DNA of 64,000 nt from Nitrospira sp. BO4 (lineage in GTDB: Bacteria > Nitrospirota > Nitrospiria > Nitrospirales > Nitrospiraceae), in contig JAMPUU010000017.1 of assembly GCA_030144965.1 (NCBI GenBank), positions 62,001-126,000 of the forward strand. The letters are read 5' to 3'. A program made the position numbers and the translations under genes. A model generated the notes under the pieces. The model saw only the letters and a list, made by a program, of their open reading frames with translations, was not told the origin of the DNA and made no database searches. This document shows positions 5,901-54,845 of this stretch, piece after piece; within the stretch, counting starts at the first letter, position 1, and each line of letters begins with the position of its first letter.

Positions 5901-6032
5901 AGCCACACCTCATGGAAGACAATCCAATACATAATGTCCTCGGGCAGAGTAACGTATCCCTTCCTAGGCGGTTGTTCCAGTAGCGCGACTTACCGAGATT
6001 AGTGTATTTCTACGCCCCTCAATGGGGCATCC

Positions 6033-6668
6033 ATGACTCCACAAACGGTTCTCCTGGCTGAGACTGATCAGCACACCCTCAATAGTCTTCCTCCGATCCT
6101 GTTTGACCACATTCCACATCTCTCCATCGAGATCTGCACGTCCCCAGACGAACTCGCTCGCAACCTGAGCACTGTCGCGTTTGATGCCATTGCGATATGC
6201 CCTCTGCTGGTCCCGCACTTTCGTTTCTATCGAAACAAAAACCACCCTCGCTTGCTCGCTCCACTGATTATCACCGTTTCGGAGAAGGATCTCACCTTGG
6301 CCCATGCCGTCCTGGAGGGTGATGCCTTTGATCTGATCATCAAACCCATCGTTGCCACCGACGCTGCTCACACGGTTCGACTGGCGCTCTGGCAAAACAA
6401 GTTATTGAAGTTGCTGGCATCGCGAGAAAGAAGAGAATCTCAATTCCGGGAACACATCGAGCAGTTTCCTCCTGATTCGAAGGCGTTCGAAGAATTTCTA
6501 TACCTGCTTGACTCCATCCATGGGGCACTCAATACGAGTTCGTGTCTTCTTGAGAGGATGGAGCAGGAGAGCTCCCTGTTCGATATGGCTTCCACCCTTG
6601 AACGAGTCACGAAGCGGAGGGCGCTGGACCGGCTCATCCATATGTACAAACCAGGTCCGGCGCATTAG
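6033..6668 (+). CDS. receiver-domain-like protein
   Basis: This encodes 211 residues. Residues ~5-110 follow a CheY-like pattern: TVLLAETDQHTL at the start, VAFDAIAICPLL where the phospho-acceptor strand should be, LLAPLIITVSEKD, and FDLIIKPI with the conserved Lys-Pro. The usual phosphorylatable Asp is not at its normal place (AIAICP instead of a D-containing strand), so it may be a pseudo-receiver. A helical C-terminus (SRERRESQFREHIEQF) follows without a recognisable output domain. It is a single gene with no adjacent kinase. Confidence 0.65.
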   Translation: MTPQTVLLAETDQHTLNSLPPILFDHIPHLSIEICTSPDELARNLSTVAFDAIAICPLLVPHFRFYRNKNHPRLLAPLIITVSEKDLTLAHAVLEGDAFDLIIKPIVATDAAHTVRLALWQNKLLKLLASRERRESQFREHIEQFPPDSKAFEEFLYLLDSIHGALNTSSCLLERMEQESSLFDMASTLERVTKRRALDRLIHMYKPGPAH

Positions 6669-6749
6669 CGTTCAACTTCGGAGCTTGGCAAGATCCTCAG
6701 AGGTAAAGGCCCCAACGACCATTCAGGCACTGGTGGAGATGCTATGAAG

Positions 6750-7265
6750 TTAGGATGCTGCCGGCTTCCCCCTCTTCCTCGCTCTATAGTTCGCTTTGGC
6801 GACCGTGAGCGCACATTTCGGGGAGCAGTATTTCTTCTTCCTCTTCGCGAGAAACAACTCCTTACACTTGTCCCTGAGGCACAATCGATAGTGCCGAGCG
6901 AGGCATTCCATGGCAATCGTGAGCACAAACCCGTCATGTGGAGACACATCCTGACGACCATAAGCAAAAGTTATTCGGCCATCCAAGAGTTCCCATGAAC
7001 GTTGTCCCACAAACTTGGTCTGTGTGCGACCCAAGGTTTTCAATTTCGTGAGGGCCTGCTGCAGTTTGTGAACCGAGATACCGTGAGCAGTCGCGAACCG
7101 GGTAGCATCGTCTCGCGACAACCCTTCACCCTCTAAAAACACTGCCCAGTCGGATTCTAGGGCTGTCTTCTGCTCAGGAGACAACTCGGTGATCGGTCGG
7201 GATGTCGTTATTTGGGCCAACAGCCATTGGGCTCTGGCCTTAGAAGGTGTTCCTACCGGTTCCAC
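6750..7265 (-). CDS. protein with C-terminal zinc finger, CGNR-like
   Basis: This encodes 171 residues. The N-terminal ~110 residues are helical (SPEQKTALESDWAVFLEGEGL...). The end holds C-x4-C-x10-C-x3-C (CLRDKC...YCSPKCA) followed by a very basic helix (KANYRARKRGKP). This order resembles CGNR-type zinc fingers of bacterial DNA-binding proteins. A regulator is likely; targets are unknown. It is transcribed away from the AT-rich region that starts the mobile module. Confidence 0.6.
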   Translation of the reverse strand: MEPVGTPSKARAQWLLAQITTSRPITELSPEQKTALESDWAVFLEGEGLSRDDATRFATAHGISVHKLQQALTKLKTLGRTQTKFVGQRSWELLDGRITFAYGRQDVSPHDGFVLTIAMECLARHYRLCLRDKCKELFLAKRKKKYCSPKCALTVAKANYRARKRGKPAAS

Positions 7266-7609
7266 AATTACCCGTCTTCCTATTTCGGAGGCCTAGATTC
7301 CCAATTTGTCCATATATAACTACATTTATCCATACCACATGTTGTTTTGATTCTGCCAGATATATGACTGTAAGTTATTGTAAATACACATGTATAATAA
7401 AACAACCCCGTTTTTGATCTAAAATGCGTATAATACAGGTATAGAAGTTGCTTGCGCAGGCATCGCCTCCAGGTGACCGAGCTTCATAAGTCCCCTGGTT
7501 TCTCTAGTCCCGAATAGACAGCGTCATGCCATGGCAGATAGACCCCGATTTGGGCGCGCCATTGGTGTGTGAATTTCTTAAATCAATTCTTCATCCAAAG
7601 GAGACATAT
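7266..7609. promoter_or_regulatory. AT-rich divergent intergenic region
   Basis: This 344-base stretch between two divergent genes is much richer in A/T than its surroundings. It holds two TATAAT matches on the plus strand (about 7,393 and 7,429) that could serve the ATPase gene, but good -35 boxes are not evident. The ATPase start at 7,610 is preceded by AAAGGAGA. The composition change fits the left edge of a transferred module. Confidence 0.4.
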
Positions 7610-8941
7610 ATGAAAGAGTTTCGTGTAATCAGCCAAACGGGCTCAGCGATTGTGGGCCCCGACATCTCAGAAGTCCGTCGTGTGGTGCAGAAGCATTTCC
7701 CCTCACTGTGGCCAGCTGTAGAAGCGTGCCTCTCGACGTGTGCCACGCTCCTGCTTAAAGACAATGCCAACCCCGTCACCATGATCGTCATGGGGCCTGC
7801 CTCATCGGGAAAGACGACGGTGACCAATATGTTTGCGGGGGCGCAATTCAACGATAAACCGCTCTGTTATCGCTCGGACAGTTTCACGGCTGCCGCCTTT
7901 GTCAGCCACTCGGCCCAGCTCACGAAAGAACAACTGGAGAAAATTGATCTCCTCCCCAAGATCAAAGATAAGGTCTTGGTGACTCCAGAATTGGCCCCGA
8001 TTTTTCGAGGAGATCAAGATGAGTTGGTCAAACGGTTCTCGGTTTTGACCCGCGTACTGGATGGTCAAGGTTTAAAGACAGACAGTGGGGTGCACGGGGA
8101 TCGCGGGTATGAAGGAGACTATGTCTTTGCATGGATCGGAGCGACGACGCCAATTGAGGGGCAAATATGGAAAGTGATGGCCCAATTGGGCAGCCGATTA
8201 TTTTTCCTGCTTTTGGATGCAGGAAGCTTCTCATCCCCTAAAGACATACTCGAAGACCTCGTTGGCTCGCTTCACGGGGAGGTTCCTTATACCGTCAAAT
8301 TACAGGAATGCAAAGGTGTCGTCGGGGATTACCTCACTCACCTTTTTGCACGCTACGGAGGACCCCGCCAAGTGGAGTGGGACTCCTCCCAGAACCCTAT
8401 ACATGTTCTTGAGGGAATAGCCCAATGTGCCATGCTCTTGGCCCACATGCGGACACCTTATGAACCCGATAGCAAGCCGTCACACGAAACGGCTCATCGC
8501 GCGAATACGATCCTCTACAATCTTGCTAGAGGCCGTGCCCTCACGTACGGACGGACTCAGCTGAACACTGACGATGTTCCCATGGTAGCTCAAGTGGCCT
8601 TGTCATCCATGCCACGTGACCGCCGAACGATATGGATGGCTCTGGCTCGGCAGGAAGGGAGGCCCTTAACGGTTCAGCAGGTCGCAACCGTGCTCGAAGT
8701 CAGTCGGCATACCGCAGAGGACCGCATGACAGAAATGGAATGGCTTGGCTGTATGGTCTTTGACAAACCAGGCAACGGTAAAGAGTCAACACTTAGGGTG
8801 CGTCCAGAATGGACGTGGTTTGTAACAGGCCAAGGGGCTGGGCTCCTGCTCGGTACAACCTGGCAAAATTCTGGGGGTGAGTCCGAAGCTGGCACTGAAT
8901 CATCTATTACAAATCCAGAAAATGAGAAAGAGAAACGATAA
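7610..8941 (+). CDS. AAA+-like ATPase with C-terminal winged helix
   Basis: This encodes 443 residues from ATG 7610 (AAAGGAGA upstream); the longer frame from 7,526 lacks a ribosome site. Walker A is GPASSGKTT near residue 70, a probable Walker B strand is KVLVTPE, and a sensor-like strand is VFAWIGATTP. The last ~110 residues (RTIWMALARQEGRPLTVQQV, then TVLEVSRHTAEDRMTEM) form a winged helix. This is the plan of replicative ATPases or helicases of small integrative elements, but I cannot name a family. It heads a plus-strand run with three HTH genes and integrase A. Confidence 0.65.
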   Translation: MKEFRVISQTGSAIVGPDISEVRRVVQKHFPSLWPAVEACLSTCATLLLKDNANPVTMIVMGPASSGKTTVTNMFAGAQFNDKPLCYRSDSFTAAAFVSHSAQLTKEQLEKIDLLPKIKDKVLVTPELAPIFRGDQDELVKRFSVLTRVLDGQGLKTDSGVHGDRGYEGDYVFAWIGATTPIEGQIWKVMAQLGSRLFFLLLDAGSFSSPKDILEDLVGSLHGEVPYTVKLQECKGVVGDYLTHLFARYGGPRQVEWDSSQNPIHVLEGIAQCAMLLAHMRTPYEPDSKPSHETAHRANTILYNLARGRALTYGRTQLNTDDVPMVAQVALSSMPRDRRTIWMALARQEGRPLTVQQVATVLEVSRHTAEDRMTEMEWLGCMVFDKPGNGKESTLRVRPEWTWFVTGQGAGLLLGTTWQNSGGESEAGTESSITNPENEKEKR

Positions 8942-9041
8942 GCACTCAACCCGTAAAAATTGCCAGGTTGAGGTGGGAACGATGGAGAGGCCTCACCTAG
9001 GCTGTCTGGATAACCTTAATAAAGCCATAGGAGACTATGAC

Positions 9042-9239
9042 ATGACACGTTCAGTAACAGAGACCGAGAACATACAGACAGATCGTTACCTGAGTGAGCC
9101 TGATCTAGCCAAGCACCTCGGCTATAGCTCCTCCACGATTCGACGTTTCAGGAAGAAAGGGCTTCCCTGAGTAGGGAAGGACCGCCTGAGGCGGTATCAC
9201 CTGGGATTGGTACTGAAATGGCTCAATGAGCGGAAATAG
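9042..9239 (+). pseudogene. HTH (excisionase-like) gene with in-frame TGA
   Basis: ATG 9042 opens MTRSVTETENIQTDRYLSEP, then LAKHLGYSSSTIRRFRKKGLP, a MerR/excisionase-type helix-turn-helix. A TGA at 9,168-9,170 stops it after 42 residues. The frame continues (VGKDRLRRYHLG...LKWLNERK) to TAG 9,239, which is the expected second half of this domain. The upstream ATPase stop is ~100 bases away. As sequenced, the product would lack the wing. Confidence 0.7.
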
Positions 9240-9404
9240 TGTCTGGGCTTATCTGGCTTGGTCTGGGTCCGCAATTTATAAATCGGCCTGACAGTGATGG
9301 GTTCTACATCCCGCTTGGGAATTTACAAAAAGAGTGGAAATAGCACATTTAGTAATTTCAATACGTTGTGAAGCAGACATCCAACAGATGAAAGGAAGGT
9401 ATGA

Positions 9405-9614
9405 ATGAATAACGGTTCGGACAAAGAACGACGATTGCTCAATATAGAGGAGGCTTCGCAATATACTGGGTTATCTGTCCATACCCTCTATGCCATGACC
9501 AGCCAACGCCGAATACCCCATGTGAAGGTCGGTCGGCTTACTAAGTTTGATCGGGAGATGCTGGATAAGTGGATCAAGCAACAGTCTGTGATGCCGGTAC
9601 CGAAATGGGGTTGA
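9405..9614 (+). CDS. excisionase-type HTH protein (HTH_17)
   Basis: This encodes 69 residues: LLNIEEASQYTGLSVHTLYA, then TSQRRIPHVKVGRLTKFDRE and LDKWIKQQ. This is the complete HTH-plus-wing domain found in recombination directionality factors and small regulators. AAAGGAAGG precedes ATG 9405 (the ATG at 9,401 meets a stop at once). It sits two genes before integrase A, so it probably controls excision of this module. Confidence 0.8.
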   Translation: MNNGSDKERRLLNIEEASQYTGLSVHTLYAMTSQRRIPHVKVGRLTKFDREMLDKWIKQQSVMPVPKWG

Positions 9615-9638
9615 CGCCATAGGTGCTTTTAAGCTAGC

Positions 9639-9860
9639 ATGCAAAGTATGCAAACACGGCTACAGGAGTGGCGAGAACGACAGGGGCTGAGTCAGAGGAA
9701 ATTGAGTGAGCTATCGGGGGTACATCATGTATCCATAGCCAGGCTCGAATCCGGTCAGCTTGACCCTCAACTCTCGACACTTCTGAAGCTCTGTGAGGCA
9801 TTGGGGATCACTCTCAACCAACTCGTAGGCGTGGCCGAGAAGCCACAGAAAGGCAGGTAG
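9639..9860 (+). CDS. XRE-family HTH regulator
   Basis: This encodes 73 residues with a classic Cro/CI domain: RERQGLSQRKLSELSGVHHV, SIARLESGQLDPQLSTLLKL and CEALGITLNQLV. It is a short DNA-binding repressor with no extra domain. Its stop lies 4 bases before the integrase A start, so the two are one transcript and it probably controls integrase expression. Confidence 0.85.
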   Translation: MQSMQTRLQEWRERQGLSQRKLSELSGVHHVSIARLESGQLDPQLSTLLKLCEALGITLNQLVGVAEKPQKGR

Positions 9861-9864
9861 TCCA

Positions 9865-11103
9865 ATGGGACTGACTAAACGGAAGGATAGTTATTATGTT
9901 GAGTTTCGGGTGTTGGATGACGGGAATGCCCTGAAGCTCGCAAGTGGGGGAGGGGGACAACTGAAACGCTGGAAGGTGGGATCTCTCAATAAGACCGTGG
10001 CTAAGCAGCAAGAGGCCGTCCTGCGAACAAGATTATTGACGGGTGCTCTCCCAAGTCCGATAAAAGCACGAGCTGAATCCATCACATTCCGGCAATGGGC
10101 ATCGCAGTACATGGAATTGGAAACCGTTAAACGCCTCAGAGGCTATGCGATTCGCAAATTGTATGTTGAAAATCTCGTGCGGTTCTTTGGAGACAAGGCC
10201 CTGGGCAGCATTACACCCAACGATGTGATGGCCTATCGAGCACAGCGGGTCCAGTACAAGCGGAGTGTTTGTAGCCGATGCCAGACTCTCATGACACAAC
10301 AGACCTGCCAGAATTGTGGTCAGCACCGTGCGGATAAAGCTTTTCCTGTTTCTATACAAACGATTAACCACGACCACATGACGTTGACGCATATGTTCAA
10401 CGTGGCCAAGAGCCCACAGTTTCATCTGATAGCGGACAATCCAGCGGCTCATGTGCCCAAGCCTAACCCAGAAAATGAACGGGACAGGATAGCTACGGCT
10501 GAAGAATGGGCGCGGCTCCAGAATTCGTTAGCTCCTCATGTACGACGGTTGCTAACCATCGCATATGAGGTGGGGCCACGGAAGGGGGAACTACTCAAGC
10601 TCGAATGGTCCGATGTAGACATGAGGCGCAAAGAGTTCATACTACGGCATACCACGAATGGAGAGGCACGTGTGGTGCCTATGACTCCGTGCGTCCATCA
10701 GGTTTTCATGGAACTCTGGAAAGAACGGCGGCTAGACACCAATCGGGTGTTCCTGTATAAAGATAAGCCAATCCTGCGTATTGGAACGGCGTTTAAAGCG
10801 GCCTGTCGGCGGGCAGGTATCGAGGGTTTGAGAATTCACGATTTTCGCCATACGGCAAGCACGAACTTGAGGCGGGCAGGAGTGGACACGGCAACGGCGA
10901 TGATGATTGTGGGACACAAGTCGGATCGGATGCATCGGCGTTATAACACGATCGAGCCGGATGACCTCCACAAGGCAGCCGCCAAGCTTCATGTGTATAA
11001 AACTAACACCGTAATAACACCTGCCTTAGTTGCTGCCGGGGCCGAAAACCTAACCGCAAGTAAAACCAGCGAGAGCGGGCGTAGCTCAGTGGTAGAGTCC
11101 TAG
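9865..11103 (+). CDS. tyrosine recombinase (integrase A)
   Basis: This encodes 412 residues. There is an N-terminal arm/SAM-like region (FRQWASQYMELE). An unusual CxxC..CxxC insert lies near residue 135 (CSRCQTLMTQQTCQNCG), probably a zinc-binding loop. The catalytic domain has the first Arg in EVGPRKGELLKLEW, then HDFRHTAS (H-x-x-R), IVGHKSD and the Tyr nucleophile in HRRYNT. The final 29 bases run into tRNA-Gly, and the stop TAG (11,101-11,103) is made from tRNA sequence. This is what is expected of an integrase gene sitting beside its att site. Confidence 0.9.
   Translation: MGLTKRKDSYYVEFRVLDDGNALKLASGGGGQLKRWKVGSLNKTVAKQQEAVLRTRLLTGALPSPIKARAESITFRQWASQYMELETVKRLRGYAIRKLYVENLVRFFGDKALGSITPNDVMAYRAQRVQYKRSVCSRCQTLMTQQTCQNCGQHRADKAFPVSIQTINHDHMTLTHMFNVAKSPQFHLIADNPAAHVPKPNPENERDRIATAEEWARLQNSLAPHVRRLLTIAYEVGPRKGELLKLEWSDVDMRRKEFILRHTTNGEARVVPMTPCVHQVFMELWKERRLDTNRVFLYKDKPILRIGTAFKAACRRAGIEGLRIHDFRHTASTNLRRAGVDTATAMMIVGHKSDRMHRRYNTIEPDDLHKAAAKLHVYKTNTVITPALVAAGAENLTASKTSESGRSSVVES
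11005..11025 (+). repeat. 21-bp repeat, copy 1, inside integrase A
   Basis: The sequence begins AACACCGTAATAACACC and ends TGCC. It occurs exactly, inverted, at 47,579-47,599 and with 18 of 21 bases at 48,256-48,276. Copy 1 is 78 bases before the 47-bp att repeat; the others are within ~1 kb of the far att copy. Arm-type recombinase binding sites, or leftovers of a related integrase gene end, are both possible. Confidence 0.55.
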
Positions 11104-11149
11104 CTTCCCAAGCTAGTTGTCGTGGGTTCAAATCCCATCGCCCGCTCCA
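11075..11149 (+). tRNA. tRNA-Gly(CCC)
   Basis: The cloverleaf is complete. The acceptor stem GCGGGCG pairs with CGCCCGC. The D arm starts TAGCTCAGTGG. The anticodon stem CTAGC/GCTAG encloses loop TTCCCAA, giving anticodon CCC. The T arm is GTGGG-TTCAAAT-CCCAT(C). CCA is encoded at 11,147-11,149. Integrase A overlaps its 5' 29 bases and integrase B its 3' 22 bases, and the 3' half is the attachment site of an island. Confidence 0.95.
11103..11149 (+). repeat. attL: 47-bp att copy within tRNA-Gly
   Basis: These 47 bases, from just before the anticodon loop to CCA, are repeated without mismatch at 48,589-48,635. A repeat that starts at the anticodon loop and runs to the tRNA 3' end is typical of integrases that cross over in the anticodon stem-loop. 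The intact tRNA lies at this end and integrase B is next to it, so this is attL of the island. Confidence 0.9.
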
Positions 11150-12324
11150 ACATTATCAGTCACTTCTACCTCAGATCCCATCACGGCAGTTTCCGCTATC
11201 ACGGTTCTAGTCACGGTTCCACTTGGAACTGGGGGCTGTTCTGCCTTCGGGGAACCGCTCTCAACGTGAATGACCGATGGCTTACCGAAGCTAGCCACGG
11301 TCTCAATGGCGGCCTTCAGGTGGGTGGGGGAGAGGTGGGCATACCGTCGGACTAGCCCGGTCGTACTGTGGCGCAATAAGGCTGCAATGGTTCCCTCTGC
11401 TTGCCCACTCATGGCCAAACGACTCGCGAAGGTATGCCGCAAGGTGTGCCAGGTCACTCCTTCTAACTTGAGAGCCTGGACGGCTGGGACAAAAACCCGC
11501 GAATAGAAGTTCCGTTGATCCAATCGCGTGGCGGGATTTTCAGAGGGGAAGACCCACGTCGAGCGTTGCCACGATTCAAAGCCTCTCAGGATCACCTTCG
11601 CCTCCTCATTGAGAGGAGCATACTGCACCTGCCCAGCCTTCGTGTATGGAAGCGTCAGAATACCTCGCTCCAAGTCCACATCAGCCCACTTCAGACCAAA
11701 CTGCTCACCCATGCGTAGCCCTGTGAGGATAGCCAGCCGAGCCCAAGAACCATAGATGTCGCCAAGTCGCGTCATCAATGCCGCTTCTTCTTCTGAGGTC
11801 AGGAAGCGAGTCTTCCCCGTAGAGACTTTGGGAAGCGATACAACCGCGAAGGGGTTCTTCTCAACGTTCCCATCCCGAACTGCCTTGTTCAGGATATGGC
11901 GTAAGAACTTCATGTAATGGATGATGGTTTGCGCCGCTAATCCTTCGGTCTGAAGGTCTCGCTGAGCTTCGTCCAATAAAGCAGGGGTGATGGCATTTAG
12001 CCGCTTCCCCTTAAGTCGTGCCTTCCACCACTCACCATAGTGTTTCTCGGCAGCCTGATTCTTCACCCGCGAGACCGTTATATGCGCGGTAATGACCTCC
12101 TCGGCCAGGACATATCCGCCATGCTGATACCGTTCAGGAAAGAACCGACCGTCCTTTTGTTCAAACTTTGCTTTCTCGTAGAACTCTCGGGCCTTCGTCT
12201 TATTGGGAAAACTTCCGAATCTTCGCTCTCGGCCTTCGTGGTAGAGGCGGACATACCACACGAGTTTGCCCGTCGAGTCCGTCTTGCTCACCAACCCTCG
12301 ATCTCGTCTTCCTGCTCGTGCCAT
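11128..12324 (-). CDS. tyrosine recombinase (integrase B) of the island
   Basis: This encodes 398 residues. The N-terminal part is an AP2-like arm-binding region (GRERRFGSFPNKTKAREFYE), followed by a SAM-like core-binding domain. The catalytic domain has Arg in LTGLRMGEQFGLKW, Lys in the beta-hairpin (PYTKAGQVQY), HTLRHTFAS, LLRHSTTG and the Tyr in VRRYAHLSP. The last 22 coding bases lie inside the tRNA. It starts 3 bases after a small ribbon-helix-helix gene on the same strand. Its position just inside attL makes it the integrase of the 11.1-48.6 kb element, or of its most recent layer. Confidence 0.9.
   Translation of the reverse strand: MARAGRRDRGLVSKTDSTGKLVWYVRLYHEGRERRFGSFPNKTKAREFYEKAKFEQKDGRFFPERYQHGGYVLAEEVITAHITVSRVKNQAAEKHYGEWWKARLKGKRLNAITPALLDEAQRDLQTEGLAAQTIIHYMKFLRHILNKAVRDGNVEKNPFAVVSLPKVSTGKTRFLTSEEEAALMTRLGDIYGSWARLAILTGLRMGEQFGLKWADVDLERGILTLPYTKAGQVQYAPLNEEAKVILRGFESWQRSTWVFPSENPATRLDQRNFYSRVFVPAVQALKLEGVTWHTLRHTFASRLAMSGQAEGTIAALLRHSTTGLVRRYAHLSPTHLKAAIETVASFGKPSVIHVESGSPKAEQPPVPSGTVTRTVIAETAVMGSEVEVTDNVGAGDGI
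11181..11218 (+). repeat. TCACGG repeats at attL (arm-site candidates)
   Basis: TCACGGCA at 11,181 and TCACGGTT at 11,199 and 11,211 all point the same way. The last two are 12 bases apart. The same octamer occurs three times near attR (48,431-48,473), also with a 12-base-spaced pair. They lie in the C-terminal coding part of integrase B. Confidence 0.5.
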
Positions 12325-12327
12325 GCG

Positions 12328-12483
12328 TCACCGTCCTTTCCGTTCAGCTTCTGAAGCTTGGTTGAAATGTACTTCCAACAAATGCCTAATGAGTCCCGCC
12401 GCACTGGTGCCGCGTTTCCGTTCGGCGTCGAGCTTGGTTTTGAGTCGTTTGGGAATCTGAATCAATATGCGTTCCATGTTCAT
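12328..12483 (-). CDS. small ribbon-helix-helix protein
   Basis: This encodes 51 residues starting MNMERILIQIPKRLKTKLDA, then ERKRGTSAAGLIRHLLEVHF. This is a beta-strand plus two helices, the minimal Arc/CopG fold. A second ATG at 12,477 is also possible. It is too short for usual ORF cut-offs. It sits 3 bases upstream of integrase B and shares an operator-like palindrome with the divergent gene at 12,580, so it is probably the repressor of the integrase operon. Confidence 0.75.
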   Translation of the reverse strand: MNMERILIQIPKRLKTKLDAERKRGTSAAGLIRHLLEVHFNQASEAERKGR

Positions 12484-12501
12484 AGGTCACCTCACTTGTT
12501 A

Positions 12502-12537
12502 TGACATCATGATATGCTTAGATATCACTATATGTCA
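12502..12537. promoter_or_regulatory. palindromic operator between divergent RHH genes
   Basis: TGACAT at the left and ATGTCA at the right enclose an inner inverted pair (GATAT...ATATC). The AT-rich palindrome spans 36 bases between the starts of two divergent ribbon-helix-helix genes (12,483 minus, 12,580 plus). RHH dimers bind such symmetric sites, so this is the likely autoregulatory operator covering both promoters. Confidence 0.6.
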
Positions 12538-12579
12538 ACTGGCATTCTCTCCTTGAAATCGTGGTATTCTTCCGCCCCT

Positions 12580-12771
12580 ATGCCCAAGAAAAACGAAACC
12601 GAGGATAAGGGCGGAGCCTGGATCTTTCGTGATATCCCGCGTGATCTCATGAAGCGGGCTAAGATCGCTGCCGCCGTGGAGGGCAAAAGCATTAAAGCGT
12701 TGGTACTAGAAGCGCTTGAAGGAAAGATTCAGGAACTCGAAAAGAAGGGGCTCCTGCCGAAAGGGAAATAA
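12580..12771 (+). CDS. Arc-like ribbon-helix-helix protein
   Basis: This encodes 63 residues starting MPKKNETEDKGGAWIFRDIP, then RDLMKRAKIAAAVEGKSIKA. The strand-helix-helix pattern is that of RHH DNA-binding proteins or antitoxins. ATG 12580 is preferred over the in-frame ATG at 12,514, which falls in the operator. No toxin gene follows directly, so a regulatory role is more likely than a toxin-antitoxin pair. Confidence 0.7.
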   Translation: MPKKNETEDKGGAWIFRDIPRDLMKRAKIAAAVEGKSIKALVLEALEGKIQELEKKGLLPKGK

Positions 12772-44997: not shown

Positions 44998-45384
44998 TTA
45001 TTGTTTGTGAGAACAGGTGTCTTGCTCTTCTTCCATTACGTTCGTCGCCTGAGTCACCTCAATCTCGACAAAGGTCCCGCATCGGTTGATCCAAAATTTC
45101 GGCCGGGCCTGACGAGAGGGAGGCGGTATGGGGGAAGGAGGGCCCACTGCGGGAAGGTTGATCTGGACGTTGACAACTGTGAGGGAAGGAGCTGGAAGGT
45201 AGGATATATACGGCCAGAACGACAGTCCCAGTAATGGTGGGATGCGCTGAAGCGGTGAGTTCATCATGCGGCTGTCATGCCCTTGCATCGCGTCACCGCT
45301 GAAATCGCGCACTATCGTACCGCCCTGACTATCACCACTATATAAGAAAACGGCTGTAGCCAGGACACACATGCAGAGTTTCAT
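44998..45384 (-). CDS. secreted hypothetical protein
   Basis: This encodes 128 residues with a signal peptide (MKLCMCVLATAVFLYSGDSQ) and a Pro-rich middle (INLPAVGPPSPIPPPSRQ). No family is recognised and no partner is adjacent. A weak hairpin (GTGGGT...ACCCAC, ~44,885) lies between its end and the acyltransferase. Confidence 0.45.
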   Translation of the reverse strand: MKLCMCVLATAVFLYSGDSQGGTIVRDFSGDAMQGHDSRMMNSPLQRIPPLLGLSFWPYISYLPAPSLTVVNVQINLPAVGPPSPIPPPSRQARPKFWINRCGTFVEIEVTQATNVMEEEQDTCSHKQ

Positions 45385-45694
45385 ACGAATATCATACTTA
45401 TTCCATGTAGGTTTGGTTACCTGGGAATATTCCTAGTATGAAGGGCTTCCGTTCCACAGGTTCCTAGTCAGGACCGGCCATGGCATTCCGTCGATGACCC
45501 GCGTTCTTTTGGCACGTGGCCCCAATATGGTATGAATCTCATTAGACATAATGGCGAATAAGCAATCCGCTCTATTGCTATTTGCCAGGCTCGCTATTAC
45601 CCCCCCCTTCGACGTACCTCATTCGAATCTGGCCCTAATCGCTATACCTGATACGGTTAACCCAAGGATGATGCGACCACTAACAGGAGGGGCG
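45385..45694. other. intergenic region, 310 bases
   Basis: No gene is supported here. An open frame from 45,551 continues into the next gene, but the well-placed AACAGGAGGGGCG lies only before ATG 45695. The region holds an 8-C run (45,600-45,607), one of several such runs in intergenic DNA of this window. Confidence 0.5.
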
Positions 45695-45943
45695 ATGATG
45701 AGCTGTATACGGTGTCAGGGGTTGATGATGGAAGAGCACATGATCGATATGGCAGCCGGCTATGGCGAGATGTGGGGCCGCAGCTGGCGCTGTTTCAATT
45801 GCGGACACCGACATGATGCCGTCATACAGCAGCACCGCAAAACTCATGCACGACCAGGAATTGCAAGGCCTGAGGCCGGACGAATTGAAGAGACTGTCGA
45901 GCTGCCGTGGGACGCAGAACTGAATGAAAACCTGGCCGCCTGA
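45695..45943 (+). CDS. small zinc-ribbon protein
   Basis: This encodes 82 residues starting MMSCIRCQGLMMEEHMID, with a second pair CFNCGHRHD. The C-x2-C...C-x2-C pattern forms one zinc ribbon. GGAGGGGCG precedes the ATG. A response regulator follows after ~50 bases. The function is unknown. Confidence 0.65.
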   Translation: MMSCIRCQGLMMEEHMIDMAAGYGEMWGRSWRCFNCGHRHDAVIQQHRKTHARPGIARPEAGRIEETVELPWDAELNENLAA

Positions 45944-45994
45944 GGAGACTGGTAGTTCTCAGGGGGGCTCCAACATGGAAACGGGGGCAAGCTC

Positions 45995-46357
45995 ATGAAA
46001 CGGGCCACCATCCTTATCATTGATGATCACACGTCACTTCGTACCGTGCTGGCGCTCAATCTTGAGGATGCCGGCTATCAGGTCTGTGAAGCCGTCGATG
46101 GCCGGCAGGGACTCGAACGGTTTCGGGCACATCCCGTGGATTTGGTCATCACGGATCTGGAGATGCCAGAAATGAATGGCCTCGAGCTGATCTTGGAATT
46201 GACGCGCGCATTCCTGGACGTGAAGGTCATTGCCATGAGCGGCCATTCGGCAGACGAACTCCAGAAGGCTCGGCTCATCGGGGCTCGGCAGACCTTTTCG
46301 AAGCCCCTGGATCTCGATGCATTGCTGCACGCGGTTCAATACGAGCTGCGACACTAG
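45995..46357 (+). CDS. single-domain response regulator
   Basis: This encodes 120 residues with a complete CheY-like receiver: acidic pair in ILIIDDHTS, phospho-acceptor Asp in VDLVITDLEMPEMNG, Ser in VIAMSGHSAD and Lys in QTFSKPLDLD. No output domain and no kinase gene are adjacent, so it must act through another protein. Confidence 0.9.
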   Translation: MKRATILIIDDHTSLRTVLALNLEDAGYQVCEAVDGRQGLERFRAHPVDLVITDLEMPEMNGLELILELTRAFLDVKVIAMSGHSADELQKARLIGARQTFSKPLDLDALLHAVQYELRH

Positions 46358-46636
46358 CTCCTAGATACTCGCTATCTGATATTTACATTAACCACCTAAG
46401 CAATGAATGAATTCAAGGGCTTTTGTCACCTCTGAACCCAGAAGGTAACCCCCCCCGACAAATTCTGTCACTTAGTGAGGCAATTTGTTTATGCAGTACT
46501 TCATTAGACAGTTGTTATGGCTTATTTCGCCGACACTCATGACATTAGACACGGCCCAGTGCCTGCATCTCACTTAGACCTAAGGAGCTACGGTTAACCA
46601 AGGGTGCGAGGTGTCCCCCCGAGGGAGGAGTCCTTC

Positions 46637-46894
46637 ATGCTTGATGCGGATGTGAAGGAGGAATACCGAAGCGCACTAACCCAGTACGCCCAAGCGAAGG
46701 AGATCTTGGAGCTAGCACGGTGTCATAGAAGCAGGGCCCTCTGTGCCCTTATCGAGTCTGATTCCACGTTGACTGGAGCCGTGGAGCTAGCGATCAAGGA
46801 TGAGGGATTTTATGAAATGCTGGAGGCTATGGTGCTCGAATACCTCGGAGGAAAGGTGAATGTCGCAGCATTACATAGGAAGACCTGGGCCTAG
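46637..46894 (+). CDS. small helical hypothetical protein
   Basis: This encodes 85 residues from ATG 46637 (GAGGGAGGAG upstream). It is mostly helical (EEYRSALTQYAQAKEILELA; EGFYEMLEAMVLEYLG). No domain is recognised. The ~280 bases before it contain an 8-C run and no gene I can support. Confidence 0.55.
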   Translation: MLDADVKEEYRSALTQYAQAKEILELARCHRSRALCALIESDSTLTGAVELAIKDEGFYEMLEAMVLEYLGGKVNVAALHRKTWA

Positions 46895-46949
46895 CATTTC
46901 GTGCCCAGACTTTGTGGTAAGCAAGTCTCACCGTCACGGTCTGCATTTT

Positions 46950-47153
46950 CTATACAGTTTGCGTGACCCAATCGGGAACCAGATAACTCGTCACACTAGT
47001 CTCCCGCGCACAACTATCACATGTTCCCTGGCGAGTGATCGAACCATGCCTTCGGAGTTTTGCCCAGTAATACATTCGTTCGTCTTCATTCCTGGGGATG
47101 TCGAAGGACAACCTATTACTACATGTTGGACAGTACTTAACCGTCATAGACAT
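46950..47153 (-). CDS. small zinc-ribbon protein
   Basis: This encodes 67 residues starting MSMTVKYCPTCSNRLSFDIP, with a second pair CDSCARE. GAGAGGAGGTCGC precedes ATG 47153. It looks like a stand-alone zinc ribbon. No partner is known. Confidence 0.6.
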   Translation of the reverse strand: MSMTVKYCPTCSNRLSFDIPRNEDERMYYWAKLRRHGSITRQGTCDSCARETSVTSYLVPDWVTQTV

Positions 47154-47510
47154 ATTGCGACCTCCTCTCGTAGGCCAATACGTTTATGTGCAGGAGGCTC
47201 AGTCTATCCAGGCATAATGGGAAGGAGGCACTGGGATATATCCTAGGGTACTAGCGTAAACGGGAGTGGATGGGAGTCACCGCCCCGTTTAATTGTGGAC
47301 AGCATTCCCCCGCCACCTCCATGACACACCGTGATCCAACTTGATCTGAGTCATTATCGAGCAGCTTCTTTGGGTGAGGATTCCTTTTGCTGGGTGTCGT
47401 AAGATGGAACCTCCGCGGGACTCTTCAGCAGGGTTCACGTTAAAGTGAGCATGGTCACTTCTTGCTATCACGCTACTATGGACACCGCCTTCCGCTTTTG
47501 CCCAGGTGTT

Positions 47511-47627
47511 GCAAAACCAATATGGTACCTGAACCGATGACGGTTGGAGGGTGCCCGTTCGAGGGTGGGGGGTCAGGAGGCAGGTGTTATTACGGTGTTA
47601 ATTAGAGCGACAAAACGGACTCAAATG
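47511..47627. repeat. ~110-bp imperfect direct repeat, copy 1
   Basis: It aligns with 48,198-48,303: both run from CAAACC.AATATGG through CGGTTGG, CC.TTCGAG, GGCAGGTG, GGTGTTAA and end AACGGACT. It includes the 21-bp element (47,579-47,599) that also occurs in integrase A. The two copies flank the RiPP precursor gene. The 47,154-47,783 stretch contains no gene I can support. Confidence 0.6.
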
Positions 47628-47685
47628 AAGTGAATGGGTACGAGGCCAGGCTATGGCTTAAACCGTGTATTCCCTTGGTAAGAGA

Positions 47686-47720
47686 GGGGATTGCCCAGGT
47701 CTTGGAATTGAGCAATCCCC
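47686..47720 (-). terminator. 9-bp-stem hairpin after the RiPP precursor gene
   Basis: GGGGATTGC and GCAATCCCC are perfect complements with a 17-base loop, ~65 bases past the stop of the minus-strand precursor gene. No T-run follows, so termination is plausible but not shown. Confidence 0.45.
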
Positions 47721-47783
47721 GTCTGGGTTCTTGGATTCCTACTGAACATCTGATCAGCTCACGAACCAGCGCTGCCAAGTTGA

Positions 47784-47948
47784 TCAACGGTTGATGTCCG
47801 GACAATTCGAATTCCCCGGCACGCCATCGTAACCGCCATTACCAAAACCGCAATTGCCTTTACCAGATCGCGTCGCAGTGATGTCTCGCAACAACTCGTG
47901 TTTCGCGAGCACTGGCGTGGCATATGTTTCTTTTTGTTCTGCTTTCAT
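47784..47948 (-). CDS. orphan lasso-type RiPP precursor peptide
   Basis: This encodes 54 residues from ATG 47948, behind an almost ideal ribosome site (AAGGAGGTGA, 7 bases). The leader MKAEQKETYATPVLAKHELL followed by RDITA has the Y-x-x-P-x-L recognition motif and the Thr two before the expected cleavage, as in lasso peptide leaders. The core is Gly/Asn-rich with two Cys (GKGNCGFGNGGYDG; NSNCPD). It has no Asp/Glu at core positions 7-9, so a classic lasso ring is doubtful. No B/C maturation genes lie in this window. It is too short and Gly-rich for routine annotation. Confidence 0.65.
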   Translation of the reverse strand: MKAEQKETYATPVLAKHELLRDITATRSGKGNCGFGNGGYDGVPGNSNCPDINR

Positions 47949-48197
47949 ATGCTTCACCTCCTTTCTTGTTGGAGTGAGGCTTGGTTGCATCAATTGGGAA
48001 TCCCTAGCCTCTTCAGGGTAAGTGCTGCCCCAAAACTACTTCTATTGAGACCATCGAAATAATCCCTCATTCAGAGGGGCAGGTAGTACGAACAGGCTGT
48101 CCATTCTTGGACAGCGCCATCCTTTCGAGTTGGCTTTAGGAAGACTGGGATCAGAATGGGGATTAGACACCGTGAATTTCGTTTTGTCGTGGCGGCG

Positions 48198-48303
48198 CAA
48201 ACCTAATATGGGTCACTTTTCCTTAAGCCGGTTGGGGCCGCCCATTCGAGAGCATGGCAGGTGGTAATAAGGTGTTAAGGTGAGCAACGGAACGGACTAA
48301 TGA
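48198..48303. repeat. ~110-bp imperfect direct repeat, copy 2
   Basis: This is the counterpart of 47,511-47,627, less complete by a short gap. It carries a diverged copy of the 21-bp element at 48,256-48,276. No open frame is convincing between here and the att copy at 48,589. Confidence 0.55.
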
Positions 48304-48430
48304 GCATATCGTTTTAGGAAGACCCAGGGCGGCTCTTCTGTTGACAGAAATGCCGGTGAATAAATGGCTAGTCGTAGAGGACCCCAAAAGGCACCCCCGC
48401 CAACGACAAACATGCCGGAGGGGTCTTCCG

Positions 48431-48473
48431 TCACGGTTTCTGTCACGGTTGGAATCCGAAAAGAGTCACGGTT
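48431..48473 (+). repeat. three TCACGGTT repeats near attR
   Basis: TCACGGTT occurs at 48,431, 48,443 and 48,466 in one orientation. The first two are 12 bases apart, as are two of the copies beside attL. They are candidate arm-type binding sites of integrase B. Confidence 0.5.
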
Positions 48474-48588
48474 AGGGGATACCACGGGATGCCACAAGAA
48501 ACAACGGCAGCACATAAACCCCTTGATAGGCTTGCGTCTGCCGTGATACTGAGTGTTATGGAATATGCTGGTGTTTTACCCATGATCC

Positions 48589-48635
48589 GCTTCCCAAGCT
48601 AGTTGTCGTGGGTTCAAATCCCATCGCCCGCTCCA
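48589..48635 (+). repeat. attR: 47-bp copy of the tRNA-Gly 3' half
   Basis: This is identical to 11,103-11,149 over all 47 bases, including the encoded CCA. The 5' tRNA half is absent upstream (only ATGATCC), so no functional tRNA is made here. It marks the distal boundary of the ~37.5-kb island. Confidence 0.9.
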
Positions 48636-48753: not shown

Positions 48754-48782
48754 GTGCGGTTCAAATCCCATTGCCCGTTCCA
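48754..48782 (+). repeat. degenerate second att copy
   Basis: The T-arm-to-CCA segment reappears with a few changes (GTGCGGTTCAAATCCCATTG). Following bases also resemble those after attR (CATACC.. GCTTG). This 150-bp-offset tandem trace suggests an earlier integration or excision at the same site. The rest of 48,783-49,030 holds nothing I can identify. Confidence 0.65.
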
Positions 48783-49030
48783 TACCGAGCTTGCTCGTGC
48801 CGACGGCTCTTCTGCTTCTCTCACGGCAAGCCTAGTGACCTTCTTATTACCGTTCATTCCGCCACGATTTCGTTGGGAGCGGGCCATCCCGTCCAATTTT
48901 GAACCAACTAGTTAGAGTTCAATTCTGCTAGCCCCATCTTGAGAGGGATTGGAGTCTTCCTACACAGGCTGTTAGGAACACTCCGCTACTTTTTGAGACT
49001 CGGGCCAAGCTTCATGTAGGGAGAACACAC

Positions 49031-50206: not shown

Positions 50207-50359
50207 GGTCGTACTCCCTTTCCGCTGAGTGAACTCGAAGTTAGCGTGCGGATACTACCATAGCCTGCCGAACACTCACAAGCGTCCGACTGTTTCATGA
50301 TGCATGAAGGCCCGGCATGATCGAACTTGACAAGATTTGGCGGTCTCTCCTATTGTGCT

Positions 50360-50590
50360 GGGCGCGAGAACTCCTGAGTAAGGGAAGAGGGTGAAACGCC
50401 CTCGCGGTCCCGCCGCTGTAAATGGGGACGAAACCCGTCGACGCCACTGGCGTGGCCGTGAAACGTCGTTCGTGAATCGTGAAACGTCTCGGTCTTGATG
50501 CGAGATACGATCCACGAGATACGCTTCACGTGCATGTTGGGAAGGCGCGGGGAGTAGGATGAACCATGAGCCAGAAGACCTGCTCAGAGA
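50360..50590 (+). promoter_or_regulatory. cobalamin riboswitch 1 (upstream of btuF)
   Basis: Conserved elements occur in order: GGGAAGAGGGTGAAACGCC, CGGTCCCGCCGCTGTAA (B12 core), GCCACTGG, GGGAAGGCG and AGCCAGAAGACCTGC. Between CCACTGG and GGGAAGGC lies ~85 bases instead of the ~15 in riboswitch 2. This extra part (about 50,455-50,535) has GTGAAACGTC and GAGATACG, each twice. It should bind adenosylcobalamin and switch off btuFCD. Confidence 0.9.
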
Positions 50591-50649
50591 GGGTGACCAT
50601 TGTTCCCTCGAGGCTGGGGAACAGGTGAGGATGAAGGAGCGGGTGCAAT

Positions 50650-54511: not shown

Positions 54512-54649
54512 TCATACGACCTGTGATCAGAGTCAGTTTAGCGAGTCAGCAATGTTCGGTTGATCGATACAAACCGGTGTAGACAGGAAGAGAGGCACCC
54601 CTCTCCTGCATAGGAATCAGGGTGCGTAACAATTATTCTGGGGGGATTC

Positions 54650-54807
54650 TTTAAGACCATACCGTCAGCGACGGGGAAGATGGTGAAAATCCATCACGGT
54701 GCCGCCACTGTAAGCGGGGAGTGACTCTGCACGATGCCACTGTGTGCTTCGGCGCATGGGAAGGCGCAGAGTTAACGACGAGCCGCAAGTCAGGAGACCC
54801 AACTGCC
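54650..54807 (+). promoter_or_regulatory. cobalamin riboswitch 2 (upstream of btuB)
   Basis: In order: GGGGAAGATGGTGAAAATCC, ACGGTGCCGCCACTGTAAGC, GCCACTGTGTGC-TTCG-GCGCA, GGGAAGGCGC and AGCCGCAAGTCAGGAGACC. The compact peripheral stem contrasts with riboswitch 1. The btuB ribosome site (GGGAGG) follows within 35 bases, so control is probably at translation; no T-run terminator is seen. Confidence 0.92.
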
Positions 54808-54845
54808 GGGATTATCGATGCCCTTCGAGTCAAAGGGAGGTTTCC

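Follow-up and report, generated by a model that had tools for sequence, protein, structure and literature searches.

The closest described counterparts of the system analysed here are the linear polyphosphorylated peptides (LPPs; Popov et al. 2026, PMC13381572), which have been called restricted to Bacillota. Their clusters combine a stand-alone RRE, an HprK-like kinase, an NTP transferase, and an MsbA-like exporter, with no macrolactam cyclase. The kinase phosphorylates Ser3 of the core and the peptide stays linear; LppK rejected Tyr as a substitute for Ser3. LPP precursors have a YxxP motif in the leader (H at +8 and T at +15, counted from its Tyr) and a Ser early in the core. Within the RRE LppB, residues N33 and D70 hydrogen-bond the Pro kink and the Tyr of the leader (structure 9x8z, an entry that we take to be LppB from its residue numbering).

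Phosphorylated lasso peptides of the paeninodin/pseudomycoidin group (PMC9266682) likewise employ B1, B2, an HprK-like kinase, a nucleotidyltransferase-like protein, and an exporter; the phospho-Ser of pseudomycoidin acquires a hexose by way of this nucleotidyltransferase-like protein. They differ from the present system in possessing a macrolactam cyclase and an acceptor acid and in being phosphorylated on a C-terminal Ser, and their leaders are mostly WxxP, unlike the YxxP found here. Canonical YxxP lasso peptides, whose RREs are represented in the PDB by TbiB1 and TfuB1, share the RRE fold, the leader motif, the −2 Thr, and the B2 protease; they differ in having a cyclase gene, which the clusters described below lack, and an acceptor at core positions 7–9, absent from the subfamily of the gene under study.

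RiPP clusters in Nitrospira have already been counted by antiSMASH (PMC9765116), and a literature search found no paper describing the Nitrospiraceae precursor family considered here. We propose that an orphan gene of this family is a detached precursor and that, if expressed, it is likely to be matured in trans by enzymes encoded on another contig (C16) into a linear peptide phosphorylated on Ser3.

The orphan precursor gene

The window (the whole 64-kb stretch of DNA analysed) is part of contig C17 of a 4.7-Mb genome. The gene and its parts, the first of these recognised by homologue comparison and profile search, are as follows.

47784..47948, minus strand: orphan RiPP precursor gene, 54 aa plus stop
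47874..47948, minus strand: predicted leader region, residues 1–25 (Y-x-x-P-x-L ... H-E-L-L-R-D-I-T-A)
47787..47873, minus strand: predicted core region, 29 aa, of a subfamily formed by cores in clusters of related species
47955..47962, minus strand: ribosome-binding site AGGAGGTG, 7 nt upstream of the orphan ATG

The ORF, MKAEQKETYATPVLAKHELLRDITATRSGKGNCGFGNGGYDGVPGNSNCPDINR, runs on the minus strand from an ATG at 47948 to a stop at 47784–47786. An earlier note on this DNA had described a YxxPxL leader with a Thr at −2, a ribosome site, and a core with two Cys and no acceptor at positions 7–9, and each of these features is present. The motif is formed by Y9, P12, and L14, and the orphan carries both hallmarks of a lasso leader, [Y/W]xxPx[L/V/I/A/F/Y] and a penultimate Thr. 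By the lasso −2 Thr rule, cleavage is predicted after A25 (DITA), which puts T24 at −2. The resulting predicted core, TRSGKGNCGFGNGGYDGVPGNSNCPDINR, has Ser at position 3 and its first acid at position 16. The orphan shares its ribosome-binding sequence with the C16 precursor, in front of which the sequence overlaps the end of B1.

Probable origin and setting in a tRNA-Gly island

DNA homology to cluster loci spans window positions 47998–47720, extending beyond the gene at both ends, with the best match (72% over 279 bp, gene included) in genome G066. The features around the gene, and those that bound the island in which it lies, are listed below.

47949..47998, minus strand: decayed 3′ end of a B1 (PqqD/RRE) gene, last ~15 codons (...QQERR-stop), with an in-frame stop upstream
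47720..47786, minus strand: orphan 3′ flank, alignable to the G066 cluster
11075..11149, plus strand: tRNA-Gly(CCC), whose 3′ 47 nt (11103–11149) are the left attachment site
48589..48635, plus strand: right attachment site, an exact 47-nt copy of the tRNA-Gly(CCC) 3′ end
11128..12324, minus strand: island tyrosine integrase, 398 aa, on the island side of the left attachment site, at which it starts
47495..47720, minus strand: dispersed repeat, copy 1, whose minus strand carries NTVITPA
48183..48303, minus strand: dispersed repeat, copy 2

Judged from these alignments, the orphan is a broken-out cluster fragment comprising a B1 tail, the precursor, and its 3′ flank, and the copy probably moved from an ancestral cluster into the tRNA-Gly island, near whose right end it lies. 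A further tyrosine integrase gene (9865–11103) ends at the left attachment site. Comparison with G117, another genome of this species, reveals a sharp step at the right boundary, with ~5% divergence left of 48635 and 0.27% to its right. Since the 11–26 kb segment is largely exchanged against G117 and 31–45 kb is nearly identical, the island is composite.

Several other features of the region were observed. The island (11075–48635) carries Tad-pilus-like genes, and an extra partial copy of the tRNA-Gly 3′ end at 48758–48793 hints at an older, smaller insertion. Between the two strains, 45000–48600 diverges by 5–8%, with 31–45 kb and 49–50 kb nearly identical, and G117 has ~2 kb extra immediately left of the orphan (C1:285962–288003). 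Two cobalamin riboswitches, at 50343–50601 and 54627–54820, precede BtuF/ABC-like and BtuB-like genes.

The ~110-bp repeats that the earlier note saw on either side of the gene do exist, but they are longer and more numerous than it described and are not part of the peptide system. They belong to a dispersed family of ~150–230 bp with 23 matches in the genome (e.g. L020–L032), the best-conserved block of which encodes, on the minus strand, NTVITPA, a C-terminal motif of tyrosine integrases. On this sequence evidence, the repeats are taken as integrative-element debris unrelated to the peptide, and the repeat family may show where integrative elements once sat. The genome-wide dispersal and the NTVITPA block argue against the repeats being part of a RiPP locus or an integron attC. 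A further idea, that all copies lie at tRNA fragments, was dropped: a pattern check gave a clear fragment at just 1 of 13.

Relic or living gene

A fragment swept into an island could be a non-functional relic, drifting with its ORF still open by chance, and this reading is a serious one that falls only somewhat short of probable. The B1 gene ahead of the orphan is truncated with an in-frame stop, no sigma-70-like promoter was found in a search near the gene, and, of 104 family precursors, the strain orthologue alone lies off-cluster without a contig end to explain it. Between the two strains, 7 of 162 sites differ (five non-synonymous and two synonymous; dN/dS ~0.74), and this 4.3% equals the divergence of the surrounding scars (4.1%–9.1% in non-coding neighbours); at the C16 locus, the two strains are 0.33% apart. 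Set against decay are the retention of frame, start codon, and Shine–Dalgarno sequence in both strains at ~5% local divergence, the retention in both of all invariant leader residues and of the family core pattern, and the lack of any indel inside the gene with several in the flanks, albeit in counts too small to decide. The G117 orthologue has L14F in its leader, a change that the published RRE motif tolerates.

Enzymes elsewhere in the genome

The earlier note had reported no B1, B2, or C gene in the window and had suggested maturation in trans. The absence holds—the nearest asparagine synthase to the orphan is more than 150 kb distant—and trans is the only route possible. The genome does encode three PqqD/RRE genes and two B2-like genes, all outside the window, with PqqD and Transglut_core3 matches on contigs C14, C16, and C18; the genome-wide RRE search thus did not refute the peptide reading. 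The cluster on C16 (coordinates of locus L014) consists of the following.

7509–7850: B1 (RRE)
7857–8024: precursor
8095–9162: HPr-kinase-like protein
9159–10394: NTP_transf_5 protein
10407–10880: B2 protease
10903–12720: MsbA-like ABC exporter

The genes lie in the order B1–precursor–kinase–NTP_transf_5–B2–exporter, and no macrolactam cyclase accompanies them. The lasso pairing of RRE and B2 is therefore available to the orphan on C16, outside the window, and the gene set typical of LPPs (RRE, kinase, NTP transferase, exporter, no cyclase) is found in this cluster, not in the surroundings of the orphan. The C16 precursor, MKAQQKESYAQPVLAKHELLRDITATRSGNGHKNKFGNWGNFGNFGNFGHRGGRH, has a core without any acid. 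Its leader and that of the orphan are identical at 26 of the first 29 residues, as near to the orphan as the strain orthologue and nearer than all other leaders compared; the genome holds no further member of the family. By sequence comparison, the orphan leader is thus of the host's own lineage, while its core type is absent from the host's C16 cluster.

The modelled C16 B1 has an RRE fold, with TbiB1 bound to its leader as the nearest structure (TM 0.92). Across the B1 family, N57 is conserved in 30 of 30 and D94 in 29 of 30 sequences, and these align with LppB N33 and D70, the residue pair of LPP RREs; many lasso and PQQ RREs have the same pair, which is therefore not specific to LPPs. The kinase has an invariant P-loop, a profile matching HPr kinases, and a PEPCK/HprK-type fold. 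Cys73 and His107 are invariant in B2, and the C16 protein scores above the lasso_biosyn_B2 cut-off.

Further RRE-associated loci were noted in the genome. On C18 (L015, C18:93000–109000, at 5921–10224) lies a second B1/B2/HPrK/NTP-transferase cluster, which includes a radical SAM enzyme but lacks a cyclase; between its B2 and kinase is a candidate precursor, ...KKPFVRPILTRHATLPAVTAAFFGTFSPHTRPR, at the end of a minus-strand ORF (9494–9853), in which the F/Y-P-L-H-T spacing is that of the C16 leaders. The third PqqD, on C14 (L016, C14:170000–183000, at 6635–12212), is accompanied by three radical SAM genes and an HprK-related kinase in a cassette resembling the SynChlorMet type.

The family in Nitrospiraceae

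The precursor profile matched 61 of 175 Nitrospiraceae genomes; in a phylum-wide sample it matched 47 of 395, only one of the 47 falling outside Nitrospiraceae. Named relatives (from the profile search of GTDB genomes) were all Nitrospira or Nitrospiraceae/Nitrospirae MAGs, which makes it almost certain that the window comes from Nitrospira; no relatives were found on the viral contigs searched. Across 60 fetched loci, the C16-type gene set recurs in varying order: family clusters comprise a stand-alone RRE (B1), at least one precursor, an HPr-kinase-like kinase, an NTP_transf_5 protein, B2, and an MsbA-like exporter, without a lasso cyclase. Lasso-like apart from this missing enzyme, such clusters probably yield linear, phosphorylated peptides.

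No cyclase of the asparagine-synthase type was found in these 60 loci. Neighbours that phmmer had marked as asparagine-synthase-like proved to be PurF by profile at both loci tested, and a presumed link between a cyclase at the locus and D/E at core positions 8–9 was dropped, the supposed cyclase being PurF. A purF-like gene often directly adjoins the RiPP cluster in related genera (L088, L102–L126, and others); in L071 and L087, it is PurF by profile. In a Pfam search of 15 genomes, asparagine synthases were separated from the clusters by at least tens of kb, except for one EPS-sized gene, which lies 4 kb from the cluster in G116.

Leaders are strongly conserved among homologues—a finding that left the earlier reading of the leader unrefuted—with K6, E7, Y9, P12, H17, L19, L20, D22, I23, T24, and A25 invariant in 27 of them. 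Compared with the LPP consensus YxxPxVLxHQxIxFETxxS, the Y, P, H, and T of the family leader keep the LPP spacing, the other residues differ, and the T-to-S spacing is 4 rather than 3. In the 103 distinct precursors, this highly conserved leader is joined to cores of 8 to ~38 residues, some just 8–13 long. Ser occupies core position 3 in 66 and S/T position 3 or 4 in 89; Tyr is at position 3 in 15, and in some lineages this position is Tyr or Leu. D/E occurs at positions 7–9 in 40, and so some relatives could form rings, which might be closed by a cyclase encoded elsewhere.

The orphan core is of the type NxGFGNGGYDGVPGxSxxxDxxR, which in related clusters usually belongs to the first precursor; the subfamily pattern, NxG[FWY]GNGGxDGVPGxSxFxDxxR, recurs in the precursor that comes first after B1 in G130, G066, G057, G113, G080, G085, G058, and G077. 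No member has D/E at positions 7–9. The two Cys of the orphan occupy Asn and Phe positions of its homologues. Cys-based or disulfide cyclisation was rejected as a family trait, both Cys being confined to the orphan and its strain orthologue.

Product class

The earlier note's "orphan lasso-type RiPP precursor" stands as regards a RiPP precursor with a lasso-type leader. Lasso as the product class is unsupported because related clusters lack an adjacent macrolactam cyclase and the orphan subfamily lacks D/E at positions 7–9. For a genuine lasso precursor that an asparagine-synthase-like protein of the host cyclises in trans, one may point to the leader motif, −2 Thr, B1, and B2, all lasso-type, and to the seven full-length asparagine synthase homologues in the genome. 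These seven, however, are fitted best by models of asparagine synthase or EPS amidotransferase, and none attains a lasso-cyclase cut-off; with the acid-free C16 core and the several very short family cores also telling against it, a lasso product is very improbable. Two defining features, cyclase and acceptor, being absent, we do not place the system in the lasso class.

Nor do we place it among the LPPs in the strict sense. The leader peptidase of LPPs is an archaeal-type signal peptidase (SpI), which was not found among the adjacent ORFs examined at the cluster loci; the Nitrospiraceae clusters have instead a lasso-type, transglutaminase-like B2 protein. The Nitrospiraceae family also lies in another phylum, Nitrospirota.

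Family membership of the orphan is itself secure. An HMM built from 25 homologous precursors, with the orphan and its strain orthologue left out, had the orphan ORF as its sole match (E = 2.1e-21) in a six-frame, stop-to-stop search of the window, and its core scored up to 99 against cluster cores, compared with a maximum of 50 for 500 shuffles. The ORF had zero Pfam matches and only sub-threshold NCBIfam matches, of which KIS RaS-RiPP and lasso_cyano were rejected as identities with scores far under cut-off. Sequence comparison thus confirmed a genuine RiPP precursor with a YxxPxL leader and −2 Thr. A chance ORF with a coincidental leader-like motif, for which one might cite the missing database matches, the shortness of the ORF, and its gene-poor, decayed surroundings (144 ORFs of at least 40 aa are listed over 40–56 kb), can be set aside as practically excluded by the independent HMM, the flanking DNA homology, the core scores, and the near-identical leader of the host's own cluster precursor.

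Proposed maturation in trans

Maturation of the detached precursor by the C16 enzymes would begin with binding of the YxxPxL leader of the expressed orphan by B1. The HPr-kinase-like kinase would then phosphorylate core Ser3, the predicted phosphoacceptor because the LPP HprK-like kinase acts on Ser3 and Ser3 is common in the family; a further group could be added to the phosphate by the NTP_transf_5 protein. Cleavage by B2 would follow ...DIT-A, and the MsbA-like exporter would release the linear peptide. We infer expression, processing in trans, phosphorylation, cleavage site, and linear product alike.

On a wider and more tentative view, which we consider possible but doubtful, these clusters represent an undescribed, Nitrospiraceae-wide class of linear peptides that are made without a cyclase, processed by B2, and modified by a kinase, the leader being invariant and the cores highly varied, and stray precursors on integrative elements feed extra cores into the resident machinery. 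The stray gene carries a lesson, in that enzymes missing within 64 kb are not thereby missing from the genome, and the system poses the question of whether a lasso B2 is productive without a cyclase. If the wider view is true, lasso machinery can serve as a linear-peptide pathway, and the nitrifiers—in Nitrospira, nitrite oxidisers and complete ammonia oxidisers—would gain a widespread peptide.
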